Of a DNA stretch of 64,000 bases, positions 6,269 through 14,338 are shown in pieces. The notes beneath the pieces are model-generated. The model was not told where the DNA came from, did not search any database, and saw nothing but the letters and a program-made list of their open reading frames with translations. Numbering within the stretch: position 1 is the stretch's first letter; the number at the start of each line of letters is the position of its first letter. Source of the stretch: Gemmatimonadota bacterium (GTDB lineage Bacteria > Gemmatimonadota > Gemmatimonadetes > Longimicrobiales > Gaopeijiaceae); assembly GCA_028874905.1 (NCBI GenBank), contig JAPPGZ010000024.1, positions 1-64,000 of the forward strand. The letters run 5' to 3'. Position numbers and translations under genes: made by a program.

Positions 6269-7579
6269 GTGTTTACTCCATTGGGCGCCCTCGTAGCGGG
6301 CTTGGTAATCGTGCTGGTGATTGTCGTGCTGGTTGCGACGATCAAAACTCTCATCGTTATCTCGCCGCCGAACCGGGCGGCGGTGCTGACGGGGCGCAAC
6401 CGACTGCTCACCGATGGGCAGCAGGTGGGCTACCGCTCCATTTCGGGGGGCCGTGTCTTCCGTGTTCCCATCATCGAGACGGTTCAGCACATGAACCTCG
6501 AGACCATCCCCATCGAGGTGTCTGTGAACAATGCCTTTTCGAAGGGCAACATTCCCTTGAACGTGGAAGCCATCGCCAACGTCAAGATCGCCTCCGAGCC
6601 GGAATGGGTCTTCAACAACGCCGTCGAGCGGTTGCTCGGAAAGAGCGAGGACGAAATCAAGGCGCTCGCGCAGGACACCCTCACCGGCAACCTGCGCGGC
6701 GTGCTGGCAACGCTGACGCCGGAGGAGGTCAACGAGGATCGGCTGGGGTTCGCCAAGGCGCTGTCGGAGGACGCGGGCGAGGACCTGGCCTCACTGGGGT
6801 TCCACCTGGACGTGCTCAAGATTCAGAACGTGAGCGACGAGCGCGGGTACCTGGCCGCGATCGGACGGGAGAAATCCGCCGAGGCCATTCGCCAGGCGGA
6901 AATCGCGGAAGCGCGGAAGCGGGCGGATACGCGCGAGGCACAGGCGGAGGCCAGCCGGCGCGCGGAGGTGCGGGAGGCCGCAGCGTCGATCAAGGTGGCC
7001 GAGGCGAAGAACGCGCTGCGGGTTCGCCAGGCGGAGCTCGACCGTGAAGGGGAGACTGCCGAGAAGATCGCGCGGGTGAAGGCGTTGGAAGCGGAGGTGG
7101 AGGCCGAGCGGATCCTGGAAATGAAGCGCGTGGAACGTGAGGAGCAGAGGCTCCTCGCCGATATCGTCGAGCCGGCCAAGGCGGAGAAGATGGCGGCGTT
7201 CGCACGGGCCGAGGCCGAAGCGGCTCCGATCCTCGAGCGCGGGAAGGCGCAGGTCGAAGTGCTGCGGCGTCTTTACGGCGAAGTGCGGGCCGGCGGCGAT
7301 GCCGCGTTCGCCGTGTTCATTGCCGAGAAACTGCCCGAGCTGCTGGAGATCGCGGTGGGTGCGGTCGAGGGAGTGGATATCGACCGAGTGGTGGTCATGG
7401 ACGGTGGTCAGGGCGAAGGCGTGTCCAACGCGTTGAACCAGCGCGTCAAGGGGGCGTACGGGACGATGGAGGGGCTGGCGTCGGTGCTTGGGCTCGACAT
7501 CCAGGAAGTCCTGAAGCGCGCGGTCGGCGGGGACACGAGCGAAGGCCCGAAGATGGAGCCAGCTCTGTCCCCCGAGTAG
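6269..7579 (+). CDS. Flotillin-like SPFH/band-7 protein
   Basis: N-terminal TM, VISPPNRAAVLTGRNR, SPFH domain, long coiled-coil (AEARKRADTREAQAEASRRAEVREAAASIKVAEAKNALRVRQAELD). Confidence 0.9.
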   Translation: MFTPLGALVAGLVIVLVIVVLVATIKTLIVISPPNRAAVLTGRNRLLTDGQQVGYRSISGGRVFRVPIIETVQHMNLETIPIEVSVNNAFSKGNIPLNVEAIANVKIASEPEWVFNNAVERLLGKSEDEIKALAQDTLTGNLRGVLATLTPEEVNEDRLGFAKALSEDAGEDLASLGFHLDVLKIQNVSDERGYLAAIGREKSAEAIRQAEIAEARKRADTREAQAEASRRAEVREAAASIKVAEAKNALRVRQAELDREGETAEKIARVKALEAEVEAERILEMKRVEREEQRLLADIVEPAKAEKMAAFARAEAEAAPILERGKAQVEVLRRLYGEVRAGGDAAFAVFIAEKLPELLEIAVGAVEGVDIDRVVVMDGGQGEGVSNALNQRVKGAYGTMEGLASVLGLDIQEVLKRAVGGDTSEGPKMEPALSPE

Positions 7580-7706: not shown

Positions 7707-8825
7707 ATGCGAGTCCCGGCCACGTTCCAGGCGTTCATCAACCGGGAGGTACACTACGTGATCAGGTTCCGTGTGTTGGCGATGTCGGTTCTCGTCGTCG
7801 CCAGCACCGCCGAGACCACGCGGGCACAGGTGGAGATTTCCGCCCGCAGCGCCCAGGTTCGCTTCGGCGGGCGGCTCCATTCCCAGTTTGCGACGAGTTC
7901 GGCGGAAGGTGGAAAGGCGACGGATTTCTTCACGCGGCGGGCGCGCTTCACCCTGGACATCGGTGTCACGGACCTGCTGGATGCGCGCGTCCAACCCGAT
8001 TTCGGAGGAGGCGAACTGGAACTGAAGGACGCGTATTTCCGCCTCAACGTGAGTCGAGGGTTCCGGTTCTCGGTGGGTCAGTTCAAGCGGGCGTTCGACA
8101 TCTTCGAGCTCAACAGTTCCACCGACATCGTAGTGGTGGAGCGCACCGGACGTATAAACGGTCTCGTTGGGTGCGCGGGACCCGGCGGCACCTGTACGCT
8201 CAGCCGCTTCACGGAAAAGCTCGCCTACTCCGATCGGGACATCGGCTTCAAGGCCGACGGTTCGCTCGGCGACAGACTGTCCTACATGGCCACGCTGACG
8301 AACGGCACGGGGACAGCGGGATCGGACGAGAACTCGGGCAAGTCGCTTGCGGGACGCCTGACGGTTCGCCTGACGGACGGCGTATCGGCCTCGGCCAACC
8401 TGTCCCGGCATGACTATGTCGGCCCGCATGGCGAGGGTGCTTCGGCGACGGCCTTCGGGGGCGACCTCGAGATCGGGGGCTTCCGCAGCGGCACGCACCT
8501 GCAGGTGGGCCTGGTCGGCGGTGCGAACTGGCGGTTGCCGGAGTCGGCCGGAGGTGAGGTCCCGAGCTTTCTGACCGGCCAGGTGATCCTGAGCCGGTAT
8601 GTACCGATTGAGAACGGCAACTTCGAGGCCGTGGAGCCCATGGCGCGGGTGAGTTGGGGAGACCCCAACCGGAATGCCCTCGACGATGGCGGCCTGCTCC
8701 TTACCCCGGGGCTGTTCCTCTACGTGGCCGGCAAGAATCGGATCGGCGCGAACCTGGACATCTACGACTCTGCCAGGGGCTCGCGGGAGGTTTCCTTCAA
8801 GCTGCAGACCTATCTGTACTACTGA
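7707..8825 (+). CDS. OprO/OprP-like phosphate-selective porin
   Basis: Signal peptide, VRFGGRLHSQFATSSAEGG, FFTRRARFTLDIGVTDLLDARVQPDFGGGELELKDAYFRLNVS...VGQFKRAFDIFELNSSTD, C-terminal aromatic-rich strand; adjacent to pst operon. GTG at 7759 is an alternative start. Confidence 0.82.
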   Translation: MRVPATFQAFINREVHYVIRFRVLAMSVLVVASTAETTRAQVEISARSAQVRFGGRLHSQFATSSAEGGKATDFFTRRARFTLDIGVTDLLDARVQPDFGGGELELKDAYFRLNVSRGFRFSVGQFKRAFDIFELNSSTDIVVVERTGRINGLVGCAGPGGTCTLSRFTEKLAYSDRDIGFKADGSLGDRLSYMATLTNGTGTAGSDENSGKSLAGRLTVRLTDGVSASANLSRHDYVGPHGEGASATAFGGDLEIGGFRSGTHLQVGLVGGANWRLPESAGGEVPSFLTGQVILSRYVPIENGNFEAVEPMARVSWGDPNRNALDDGGLLLTPGLFLYVAGKNRIGANLDIYDSARGSREVSFKLQTYLYY

Positions 8826-8907: not shown

Positions 8908-8961
8908 AAATCGTCGCGAGCGTTGCAAACACACCAGATCAGAAACGGAGCGAGAAACCGA

Positions 8962-9831
8962 ATGAAGAGAGTCATCCCCTTTGTCGCGCTGGCGATGCTT
9001 GCCTGCGGGGGCGCCGACAGGGCCCAGCGGGCCATGATCCAGAACAAGGGCTCCGACACCCTGTTGAACGTGGCCCAGGCGTGGGCCGAAGTGTACAGCG
9101 CGGTCAACCCGAATGTGGCGGTCGCAGTCACCGGCGGAGGGTCCGGTACCGGCATCTCCGCGATGATCAACGGCACCGTGGACATCGCGAACTCCTCGCG
9201 GAAGATGCGCGAAGCCGAATTCGAGGCGGCCAGGCGAAACGGGGTCGAGCCCATCGAGTACATCGTCGGGTATGACGCGCTCGCGGTCTATTTGCACGCC
9301 GACAACCCGATCGGGAGCATGACCCTGGAGCAACTCAAGGCCTTGTATGGGGAGGACGGCACGGTGACGAGATGGTCTGATCTGGGCGTTGCCGTGCCGG
9401 GTTGCGACTCGGACGAAATCGTTCTGGTGAGCCGGCAGAACAATTCGGGCACGTACGTCTATTTCAAGGAGACCGTGCTGGGCGACAACACCGAGTACAA
9501 GCTCGGTTCCCGGGACATGCACGGTTCGAAGGACGTTGTCGACCTCGTGGAAAACACGCCTTGCGCCATCGGGTACAGCGGGCTCGCTTATGCCACGGAA
9601 CACGTCAGCATGCCATGCATCATGGTGGGAGACGCCGGGGGCTGCGTGGAGCCCGCCATTGCCACGGCCGTCGACGGGAGTTATCCCATTGCCCGCCCGC
9701 TCTTCATGTACACCGCCGGCGAACCGCAGGGTGCGGTCAAGGAGTACATGGACTGGATCCTCTCACAGGAGGGTCAGTGCGTGATCCTGGAGCGCGGGTA
9801 CGCGCCCTATACTGACATGGAGTGCGCTTGA
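8962..9831 (+). CDS. pstS: Phosphate ABC transporter substrate-binding lipoprotein PstS
   Basis: MKRVIPFVALAMLACGG lipobox; NKGSDTLLNVAQAWAEVY, GGGSGTGISAMINGTVDIANSSR, RQNNSGTYVYF. Confidence 0.93.
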   Translation: MKRVIPFVALAMLACGGADRAQRAMIQNKGSDTLLNVAQAWAEVYSAVNPNVAVAVTGGGSGTGISAMINGTVDIANSSRKMREAEFEAARRNGVEPIEYIVGYDALAVYLHADNPIGSMTLEQLKALYGEDGTVTRWSDLGVAVPGCDSDEIVLVSRQNNSGTYVYFKETVLGDNTEYKLGSRDMHGSKDVVDLVENTPCAIGYSGLAYATEHVSMPCIMVGDAGGCVEPAIATAVDGSYPIARPLFMYTAGEPQGAVKEYMDWILSQEGQCVILERGYAPYTDMECA

Positions 9832-10904
9832 GCCTCTACGACCAGCGCCTGGAGGCCGACCTCGCCGCAATCCGCACGCGGCTGCAGGGTGTCGGAGACG
9901 AGGTCCTGCACAATTTGCGGCACGGGGCGCGGGCGGTCCTCGACCTCGACCGGCGCCTCGCCAACGATACCCTGATCAGGGACCGCGCGGTCAACCAGGC
10001 CACACGCGAGGTCGATCACCTGTGCCACCTCTTCGTGGCCCGGCATCTTCCGAGCGGAAGTCACCTCCGTTTCATCTCCGGGGTGCTGCGGCTTGCCGTC
10101 GCAATGGAACGGGTGGGCGACTACTCGGTCGCGATCTGTCGGGTGGCGAGGCAGATCGAGTCCCCCCTGCCCGATGCGGTGTTGAACAACATCGAACTGA
10201 TGAGCGAGCATGCGCGACGGGCGCTGCGGGCGGCTCTGGACGGGTTTCTGGAAGGTGACCCGGACGCGGCGCATGTTTCGCGGGGGTTCGCCGCTCAGAC
10301 CGCCGCGCTCTACCCCTACGCCTTCGAAATCCTGAGCGCGGCTGCGGATTCGGACCCTCGTCCGGCGCGCGACCTCTTCGGGGCGTTGCTGGTCTTTCGG
10401 CTCTTGCAGCGGACCGCGGAGCAGGCGGAGAACATTTGCCAGCAAACGCTGTTCGCGGTAACGGGGGAACGGAAGCGGGACAAGCGCTACCGCATGCTCT
10501 TCGTGGACGAGAACAACGCCATGGTCAGCAAGATGGCGGAGCTGGCGTGTGTCGAAAGCTATCCGCACGCCGGCCGCGTCGGCTCGGCCGGGCTCGAGGC
10601 AGCGGCCGAATTCGCTCCGGCATTGCGTAGGTTCTGCCGGCGCCGGGGGATGGTTCTGCCGGCTGATGACGCCCCTAGAAACTTCGCCGATGCGCTCGAC
10701 TCGTCGCGGCACTATCACGTGATCGTGGGGTTGGGGGTGGATCCCACCAACCATTGTTCCGTCCCCTACCGGACAGCCGCTCTCCAGTGGGATCTGGACC
10801 AGGACGCGACCGGCGGCGACTCCAGCGCCGAGGAGCTGTACCGGGAACTCATGCGGCGGATTCGCGGCCTGATGACGACTCTGGGGGTTCGGGACGACGA
10901 GTGA
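9822..10904 (+). CDS. phoU: PhoU-domain protein fused to a C-terminal LMW-PTP/ArsC-like domain lacking catalytic residues
   Basis: PhoU-like helical N-terminus (LRHGARAVLDLDRRLANDTLIRDRAVNQATREVDHLC...MERVGDYSVAICRVARQI). C-terminus RYRMLFVDENNAMVSKMAELACVESYPHAGRVGSAGLEA...YHVIVGLGVDPTNHCSVPYRTAALQWDLDQD aligns by eye with the LMW phosphatase fold. GTG start, overlaps pstS. Confidence 0.82.
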   Translation: MRLSLYDQRLEADLAAIRTRLQGVGDEVLHNLRHGARAVLDLDRRLANDTLIRDRAVNQATREVDHLCHLFVARHLPSGSHLRFISGVLRLAVAMERVGDYSVAICRVARQIESPLPDAVLNNIELMSEHARRALRAALDGFLEGDPDAAHVSRGFAAQTAALYPYAFEILSAAADSDPRPARDLFGALLVFRLLQRTAEQAENICQQTLFAVTGERKRDKRYRMLFVDENNAMVSKMAELACVESYPHAGRVGSAGLEAAAEFAPALRRFCRRRGMVLPADDAPRNFADALDSSRHYHVIVGLGVDPTNHCSVPYRTAALQWDLDQDATGGDSSAEELYRELMRRIRGLMTTLGVRDDE

Positions 10905-11851
10905 CGCCTCCGGACTACACCGCGACCGCACCGAGGCCAACCGCAATGGATCCGCGTGACGCAATGGATCGGCGCGACCTCGCGTGGTACGTGGACCGGG
11001 TGGCCCAGGCGCTCGTCTTCGTGGGTGGCATCTCCGCGATCATCTTCATCCTCGGGATCTTCGTATTCGTCACCAAGGAAGGGCTCGACTTCGTCCTCGG
11101 ATCGCTCAATCTCGGTGAGTTCTTTACGTCGATCGCGTGGCGTCCCACCTCCAACAACCCCACCTATGGCGCCCTGGCGCTCATGGTGGGCACGGCCAGC
11201 GTCACGGGCTTCGCGATGCTCTTTTCCGTTCCGCTGTCGCTGGGCGCCGCGCTCTATATCGGGGAATTCGCCACGGGGAAGACTCGCGAAGCACTCAAGA
11301 TCCTGGTGGAAATGCTCGCCGCGATTCCCTCGGTGGTGTGGGGCTTCGTCGGCATGTCGATCATGAACCCGCTGATCATCGAGACGTTTGACGTGCCGGT
11401 GGGGCTGGGCGTGCTGAACGCCGGGCTCATCCTGGGACTGATGGCCGCACCGATCATGACCACCATTGCGGAGGACGCCCTGAAGGCGGTTCCCGACACC
11501 TACCGGGAGGCTGCTGAGGCCCTGGGGGCCACGCGCTGGGAGGTGATTCTCAAGGTGGTGATCCCGGCCAGCAAGAATGGACTTTTGGCGGCTGTGCTAC
11601 TCGGCGTGGGAAGGGGCTTCGGAGAGACCATGGCCGTGCTGATGGCCTCGGGCCATGCGATCAACCTGCCCACGAGCCCGTTCGACTCCGTGCGCGCCCT
11701 CACGGCAACGATCGCCGCCGAACTCGGGGATACGGTATACGGATCGAGTCACTACGGTGCACTCTTCACCCTGGGCATCTTCCTGTTCCTGGTCACCTTC
11801 ATCGTCAACCTCACCGCGGACGTCGTGGTTCGCGGCATCCGGAAGAAATAG
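10901..11851 (+). CDS. pstC: Phosphate ABC transporter permease PstC
   Basis: ALMVGTASVTGFAMLFSVPLSLGAALYIGEFA, IPSVVWGFVGMSIMNP, EAAEALGATRWEVILKVVIPASKNGLLAAVLLGVGRGFGETMAVLMASGHA. GTGA overlap with phoU. Confidence 0.93.
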   Translation: MTPPDYTATAPRPTAMDPRDAMDRRDLAWYVDRVAQALVFVGGISAIIFILGIFVFVTKEGLDFVLGSLNLGEFFTSIAWRPTSNNPTYGALALMVGTASVTGFAMLFSVPLSLGAALYIGEFATGKTREALKILVEMLAAIPSVVWGFVGMSIMNPLIIETFDVPVGLGVLNAGLILGLMAAPIMTTIAEDALKAVPDTYREAAEALGATRWEVILKVVIPASKNGLLAAVLLGVGRGFGETMAVLMASGHAINLPTSPFDSVRALTATIAAELGDTVYGSSHYGALFTLGIFLFLVTFIVNLTADVVVRGIRKK

Positions 11852-11854
11852 CCC

Positions 11855-12724
11855 GTGTTCACCGCGACGACGCTCAACCGGAGAAGCTACCGGACCCAGA
11901 ACGTGGCCCGGGCCGTGTTCTTCCTGATGACCGTGACCCTGGTGATCCCGGTGCTGATCATCATCGGCACTCTGGTCGTGAAGGGGGGACCGGCGATCTC
12001 GTGGGAGTTCCTCTTCACGGAGCCGCGCGACGGGATGACGGCCGGCGGGATCTTCCCGGCACTGGTAGGAACCGTATGGCTGGTGGCAGTGGCGCTGCTG
12101 GCTTCAGTGCCGGTTGGGGTGGCCGCGGCCCTTTACCTGAGCGAATACGCGCCGGACAACCTGCTGACCCGGACCATCAACCTGGCGATCATCAACCTGG
12201 CCGGAGTGCCCTCGATCGTGCACGCGCTCTTCGGCGTGGGCGCGTTCGTCCTCTTCTTCAACATCGGAGCCTCGATCCTCGCCGCCAGTCTGACTCTCGC
12301 CGTGATGACGCTGCCGGTCGTCATCGTTGCCACGCGCGAGTCGCTCCAGGCGGTACCGCAGGCGTTCAGGGAAGCATGTTGGAACATGGGGGCCACACGC
12401 TGGCAGACGATTCGCAAAGTCGTTCTACCCAATTCGATCAGCGGGATCCTCACCGGGGTGATCCTCGAGGTCTCACGGACGTCCGGAGAGACTGCGCCGA
12501 TCATGTTCACGGGAGCCGCCGCGTTCGTGGCGTTCCTTCCGGCCAGCGTGTTCGATCAGACGATGGCCATGTCCTACCATCTGTACTACATCGCGACCCA
12601 GCAGACCGGCGTGCCCGAGGAGATTCCGTTCGGCGTGGCCCTGGTGCTTATCTCGATCGTGCTGATGATGAACGCCATCTCGATCGCGTTCCGGGTCTAC
12701 CTGCGGGGCCTGAAGAAATGGTAG
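11855..12724 (+). CDS. pstA: Phosphate ABC transporter permease PstA
   Basis: GGIFPALVGTVWLVAVALLASVPVGVAAALYLSEYAP, NLAGVPSIVHALFGVGAFVLF, EACWNMGATRWQTIRKVVLPNSISGILTGVILEVSRTSGETAPIMFTGAA. Confidence 0.93.
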   Translation: MFTATTLNRRSYRTQNVARAVFFLMTVTLVIPVLIIIGTLVVKGGPAISWEFLFTEPRDGMTAGGIFPALVGTVWLVAVALLASVPVGVAAALYLSEYAPDNLLTRTINLAIINLAGVPSIVHALFGVGAFVLFFNIGASILAASLTLAVMTLPVVIVATRESLQAVPQAFREACWNMGATRWQTIRKVVLPNSISGILTGVILEVSRTSGETAPIMFTGAAAFVAFLPASVFDQTMAMSYHLYYIATQQTGVPEEIPFGVALVLISIVLMMNAISIAFRVYLRGLKKW

Positions 12725-13552
12725 ACGGGTTGCCTGCGTCTGCGACGGCCGGCGTGCTGGCCGCGGCGACGACCGCCGGCGGGGTTGCGAGCCCGCTCTA
12801 CGGGGAGCCTCCCATCATCGAAGTGCGGGACCTGACGATTTCATACGATGGTCAACCCGCGCTGCGGGACATTTCGCTGGACATTTTCAGGCACGAAATC
12901 TTCGGGATCATCGGCCCCGCCAACAGCGGCAAGACGTCGTTCCTGCGCACGCTCAACCGCATGGACGGCTTCAATCCGGGGATGGACGTGCGTGGGAGCA
13001 TCCGTCTCAACGGGAAGGACATCAACGACTGGCGCAACGTGTACGCGCTACGCTCCAGGATCGGGGTCGTGTTCCCGTTGCCGGTGGGCTTGCCGTTGAC
13101 CGTGTACGACAACGTGGCCTTCTCGCCGCGGCTGCGCGGGATTCGCAGGAAGGCCGATCTGGACGAAGTCGTCGAACGGTGCCTGACCCGCGCCGCGCTG
13201 TGGGATGAGGTCAAGGACCGGCTGGATTCGCTGGGGAGCCTGCTTTCCGGTGGCCAACAGCAGCGGCTCACGATCGCGCGCGCGCTGTCGCAGGAACCGG
13301 AATTGCTGCTCCTGGACGAGTTCTCGATCGCGGTCGATCCGGTGACCACCATGCGTATCGAGGACGTTCTCCGGGAACTGCGCTCCGAACTGACGATCGT
13401 GCTGGTGACGAACCTGGTGCAGCAGGCGCGCCGGCTGGCCGACCGCACGGCCTTCTTTCTGATGGGTGAGATGGTCGACATCGGCGCCACGGAGGATCTC
13501 TTTGAGGGCAGGGTCCGGGACGAGCGCACGACCGGCTATATCGAGGGACGCT

Positions 13553-13560
<8 letters not shown>
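12718..13560 (+). CDS. PstB-like ATPase A (canonical LSGGQ signature, degenerate Q-, D- and H-loops)
   Basis: Walker A GPANSGKTS; 'Q-loop' VVFPLPVGLPLTVYDNV (Gln to Pro); LSGGQQQRLTIARAL; Walker B LLLLDEFSIAVD; H-loop VTNLVQQA (His to Asn). Confidence 0.9.

Positions 13561-14337
<777 letters not shown>

Positions 14338-14338
<1 letters not shown>

Follow-up and report, generated by a model that had tools for sequence, protein, structure and literature searches.

It has long been an open question how PhoU senses the phosphate state of the cell and relays it to the phosphate transporter and to PhoR. The locus described here poses this question for a PhoU protein carrying a second half that resembles an arsenate reductase: what is the added half, and what might it contribute to PhoU? 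The gene, designated phoU·LMWP, lies on the forward strand at positions 9822..10904 of the window, by which we mean the whole 64,000-nucleotide stretch under analysis (contig JAPPGZ010000024.1 of the Gemmatimonadota assembly GCA_028874905.1). It is an open reading frame with a GTG start encoding 360 amino acids, homologous to PhoU in its first part and to ArsC in its second. The account we favor, with slightly better than even confidence, is that the product acts as PhoU in a Pst system that is divergent and probably asymmetric, and that its non-catalytic pseudo-ArsC tail is probably a module for interaction or regulation.

The PhoU part comprises residues 5-215 (9834..10466, + strand) and matches PF01895 in two stretches (E 7.3e-18, 65.2 bits; cut-off 23.5), with both PhoU repeats exceeding the Pfam cut-off. 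These two repeats and the location in a pst operon are shared with canonical PhoU proteins (TIGR02135, PF01895), whereas three features set the fusion apart: the added C-terminal domain, a score of 106.7 bits against the full-length PhoU equivalog TIGR02135, which is under the cut-off of 130.25, and a degenerate second ExxxD metal motif. In the window copy, the first of these motifs is intact (ERVGD) and the second reads QRTAEQ. The same holds across the fusion family, as ERxGDY is present in 48/48 copies covering the first metal-binding motif, while the second is degenerate throughout, e.g. QRTAEQ or KRVAEQ.

The genes surrounding phoU·LMWP form a compact operon on the + strand, in the order Porin_O_P, pstS, phoU·LMWP, pstC, pstA, pstB1, pstB2. 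The first gene encodes a phosphate-selective-type porin (7707..8825; PF07396, E 7.6e-9), which adjoins pstS in near relatives and is located on the other strand or undetected elsewhere. PstS (8923..9831; TIGR02136, 229.7 bits, cut-off 206.6), PstC (10901..11851; TIGR02138, 260 bits, cut-off 196) and PstA (11855..12724; TIGR00974, 259 bits, cut-off 193) score above the curated cut-offs for phosphate transporters, and PstB1 and PstB2 below theirs. The fusion gene overlaps pstS by 10 bases, and its stop codon overlaps the GTG start of pstC by four (GTGA). Within each stretch fetched, the pst gene order was identical in every relative locus. Two further genes flank the operon: an SPFH/Band_7 (flotillin-like) gene (6269-7579) shortly before the porin, also found beside the operon in near relatives, and an amidohydrolase gene (PF07969; 14335-15996) directly after pstB2.

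We read the gene product as the PhoU subunit belonging to this divergent phosphate transporter (PstS-PstC-PstA-PstB1-PstB2). In phosphate-rich conditions, its PhoU half would probably act as other PhoUs do, damping the transporter and any linked PhoR. The window genome carries a second, ordinary phoB-phoR-pstSCAB-phoU locus on another contig (open reading frames read by eye, with PhoU, PhoR and PstB matches). Of the 21 fusion genomes tested, 12, mostly draft assemblies, yielded no PhoU other than the fusion, and in these same 12 genomes PstB1 and PstB2 are the only strong PstB matches. In one of these sole-PhoU genomes (locus L052), PhoB- and PhoR-like genes (6-767 and 872-2599 of that locus) directly precede the porin and pstS; in several other fusion loci, a PhoR-like kinase is encoded on the same strand a short distance upstream.

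The C-terminal domain spans residues 222-355 (approximately 135 residues; 10485..10886, + strand). Searched alone against Pfam, the window domain gave no significant match, and phmmer with this single sequence returned a weak hit to the ArsC structure 3t38 (E 0.0017, domain residues 9-137). A profile of 37 family sequences matched PDB structures over nearly the full length (3t38, 1.4e-11; 1y1l, 2e-11; 2l17, 2e-9), with more ArsC and LMW-PTP structures below these three, and 19 of the 37 members matched PF01451 individually (best E 7.6e-9). Comparison of this family with free ArsCs of the same phylum, profile against profile, gave a probability of 99.4 and an E-value of 8e-22 over 134 columns. 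A single receiver domain, included as a control, gave no match in this comparison; the reading as a receiver domain, which the response-regulator-like start RILFVDxD might suggest, was rejected on this ground. Homology of the C-terminal domain to thioredoxin-type arsenate reductases and LMW-PTPs is thus firm as judged from the family profile, and the resemblance extends over the whole domain, including the SAG motif, a conserved Trp and the scaffold residues of the P-loop. AlphaFold models of the full-length product and its C-terminal domain, built on four aligned sequences, had an uninformative pLDDT of 45, and the LMW-PTP-type fold is predicted here from homology.

Does the domain retain the residues of an enzyme? 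Among 394 genomes searched from the class, we identified 48 full-length or near-full-length fusions, including the window copy, plus one copy ending at a contig end, with ordinary PhoUs found beside them; the 49 fusions (the window copy and 48 Gemmatimonadota relatives) were aligned. All counts given here derive from sampled Gemmatimonadota. The degenerate P-loop of the window copy, DENNAMVS (10506..10529, + strand), runs D229-E-N-N232-A-M-V235-S236-K-M-A-E, so that Asp229 stands at the position of the nucleophilic Cys and Val235 at that of the Arg. Across the alignment, the nucleophile position is Asp in 40 sequences, Gly in nine and Cys in none, and the P-loop Arg is retained in two (L033 and L036), the other copies having mostly Ala, Val, Leu or Thr there; no copy has the C(X)5R signature. 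The W-D-L-P-D-P loop, which supplies the general-acid Asp of ArsC, is retained in 0/49 fused domains, a DP dipeptide near the Trp but in another register occurs in four (L020, L033, L036 and L040), and the domain is entirely free of Cys in 19/49. With its fusion to PhoU, these losses distinguish the domain from ArsC and LMW-PTP.

The initial annotation had described a PhoU fused to an LMW-PTP/ArsC-derived domain, with Asp and Val replacing the P-loop Cys and Arg, flanking Asn, Ser and MAE conserved, and catalysis abolished. Family-profile and profile-profile homology bear out the fusion, the window copy has exactly these residues, and "catalytically dead", taken as lack of catalytic residues, agrees with the counts above. 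Catalytic residues have been lost in every relative examined, and the loss thus characterizes the sampled family as a whole rather than one mutated strain. Homologs with an intact C(X)5R were also sought; no such fusion was found among approximately 440 genomes of the phylum, and both an isolated mutation and a fusion to an intact enzyme were rejected on this basis. While Asp in 40/49 copies could in principle replace Cys as a nucleophile, and in the lineage of L033 and L036 the Asp is accompanied by the Arg and by a further Cys of the P-loop (DRxNDCRS), we consider continued enzymatic activity of this kind very improbable, given the Gly-type loops, the loss of Arg and the lack of a conserved DP general acid.

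The composition of the loop bears on two further readings. Its position 0 is restricted to Asp or Gly and positions 1, 2, 4 and 5 are variable, while position 3 is mostly kept as Asn or His and position 7 is Ser in 40/49. The initial annotation had suggested that the domain might sense phosphate or arsenate: the P-loop backbone would still bind the anion and report intracellular Pi to PhoU, providing feedback on uptake. Descent from an oxyanion-binding fold, the retained residues at positions 3 and 7 and the room that Gly would leave for an anion in nine sequences are compatible with this proposal, and PhoU of M. smegmatis has been reported to respond to intracellular Pi (PMC12301784). However, in 40/49 copies an Asp occupies the position of the anion (thiolate), and the anion-anchoring Arg is gone in 47/49, the window copy showing both changes. 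The substitutions oppose a classical oxyanion site, even if the nine Gly-type loops could allow one, and we regard an oxyanion sensor as unlikely. In sum, the initial annotation was right about the fusion and the loss of catalytic residues, its Pi/arsenate sensor is not supported, and an operon with two complementarily degenerate PstBs did not feature in it.

The same Asp could instead create an acidic pocket for a cation, e.g. Mg2+, or for a positively charged segment of a partner, and this charge-switched site would regulate PhoU via metal or ATP/Mg status. The limitation of the Cys position to Asp or Gly amid variable neighbors, together with the one metal motif of two that the PhoU part retains, would fit such a role; Gly in 9/49 copies does not, and a second conserved acidic ligand was not identified in the loop. 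We judge this possibility improbable.

Replacement of the nucleophile has a precedent in ArsC homologs of kinetoplastids, in which Gly takes the place of the catalytic Cys (PMC2175518), as it does in nine of the fusions, and the T. brucei LMWPc protein mt-SAF26 (PDB 6sga) is among the PDB matches of our family profile. The pseudo-ArsCs of PMC2175518 are likewise ArsC-derived and devoid of the catalytic Cys; in contrast to the domain described here, they come from eukaryotes, have retained both the Arg and the general-acid Asp, and are not fused to PhoU. Our literature searches, in a body of papers from which most subscription journals are absent, turned up no account of a PhoU-LMWP/ArsC fusion.

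If the domain is not an enzyme, it might simply be decaying. The fusions are well separated from their relatives: in a profile search of 395 phylum genomes (largely the same set), they scored 126-203 bits and all other proteins at most 56 bits. The lower-scoring matches that were fetched proved to be ordinary ArsCs carrying C(X)5R; some of them begin with an ArsR-like or GNAT-like N-terminus, as judged by eye. A midpoint-rooted tree places the fused domains in a single clade (100/100), separate from the intact C(X)5R ArsCs of the phylum. A contig scan with the window protein as query covers close relatives only, and a plasmid search gave no place covering 80% of the query, the matches displayed being to PhoU only. 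Within the genus of the window (20 sequences, Nei-Gojobori), where synonymous sites are already well diverged, the PhoU part had a median dN/dS of 0.15 and the domain one of 0.22. Given the latter value and the at least 90% conservation of 18 of the 134 domain columns, the domain is, by these measures, under purifying selection and not decaying freely.

This evidence also bears on a vestigial, linker-like appendage of little function, retained only for the stability of the protein. Consistent with this idea, the domain diverges faster than the PhoU part in pairwise identities as well as in dN/dS, and the transporter is also found without the fusion. The purifying selection on the domain, its invariant residues (H299, P315 and W323, among others) and the lack of truncated domains among the 47 aligned copies uncut by a contig end argue against it, and a mere appendage seems to us a poor candidate. 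The faster divergence of the domain is, nonetheless, also compatible with relaxed constraint and to this extent counts against the interaction module that we favor.

The transporter itself appears unequal in its two ATPases. PstB1 (12718..13560, + strand) keeps LSGGQ and contains a DEFSIAVDP stretch, with the Q-loop Gln replaced by Pro and the switch His by Asn; PstB2 (13466..14338, + strand; start uncertain) keeps the Q-loop, Walker B and the His, with LSLEE in place of LSGGQ. These changes recur in the relatives: in 21/21 operons, PstB1 has an intact LSGGQ but neither the Q-loop Gln (the stretch reads VFPLPVGLP or close) nor the switch His (VTNLVQQ), and PstB2 carries LSLE[EA] or a close variant, with Q-loop, Walker B and His kept, in 20/20. 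As read from their motifs, PstB1 and PstB2 are complementarily degenerate. If they pair, the transporter would combine a consensus composite ATP site with a degenerate one, as do ABC heterodimers of the degenerate-site type such as TM287/288 (PMC5216877); TM287/288 is an exporter, whereas the Gemmatimonadota system would be a phosphate importer with a putative PstB1-PstB2 pair. Adjacent PstB genes with distinct roles are also found in Enterococcus faecalis, in which Walker A, LSGGQ and the H-loop are kept in both proteins (PMC12096839), unlike in the pair described here.

The asymmetry of the PstBs extends beyond the fusion, because the same motif losses occur in eight operons without it. This PstB1 type is present in 51 genomes, nine of which show no fusion (eight loci inspected), and the fusion is therefore not essential for the transporter. 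Six fusion-free genomes belong to one genus and have PstSCAB1B2 with pstS directly followed by pstC; a genome-wide search for PF01895 (PhoU) proteins found none in these six.

Pseudoenzymes repurposed as interaction modules are a known pattern, and we propose that the C-terminal half of the fusion follows it. This half would derive from a thioredoxin-type arsenate reductase whose nucleophile was lost before the sampled family diversified, and is now probably a folded interaction or dimerization module rather than an enzyme. Candidate contacts include PstB1/PstB2, PhoR or another subunit. In a more elaborate version, an asymmetric PhoU would employ the repurposed ArsC domain as a built-in sensor of a ligand or partner, and would control a phosphate transporter in which one ATP site works and the other is degenerate; we hold this version with little confidence.

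A natural PhoU that carries a separable additional domain, and that is the sole PhoU found in some genomes, offers a direct handle on how PhoU controls transport and signaling. The linked PstB pair would, if its subunits pair, constitute a degenerate-site ABC importer for phosphate. The combination of the fusion with seemingly unequal ATPases in one compact operon may help to show how PhoU-type regulators control phosphate uptake.
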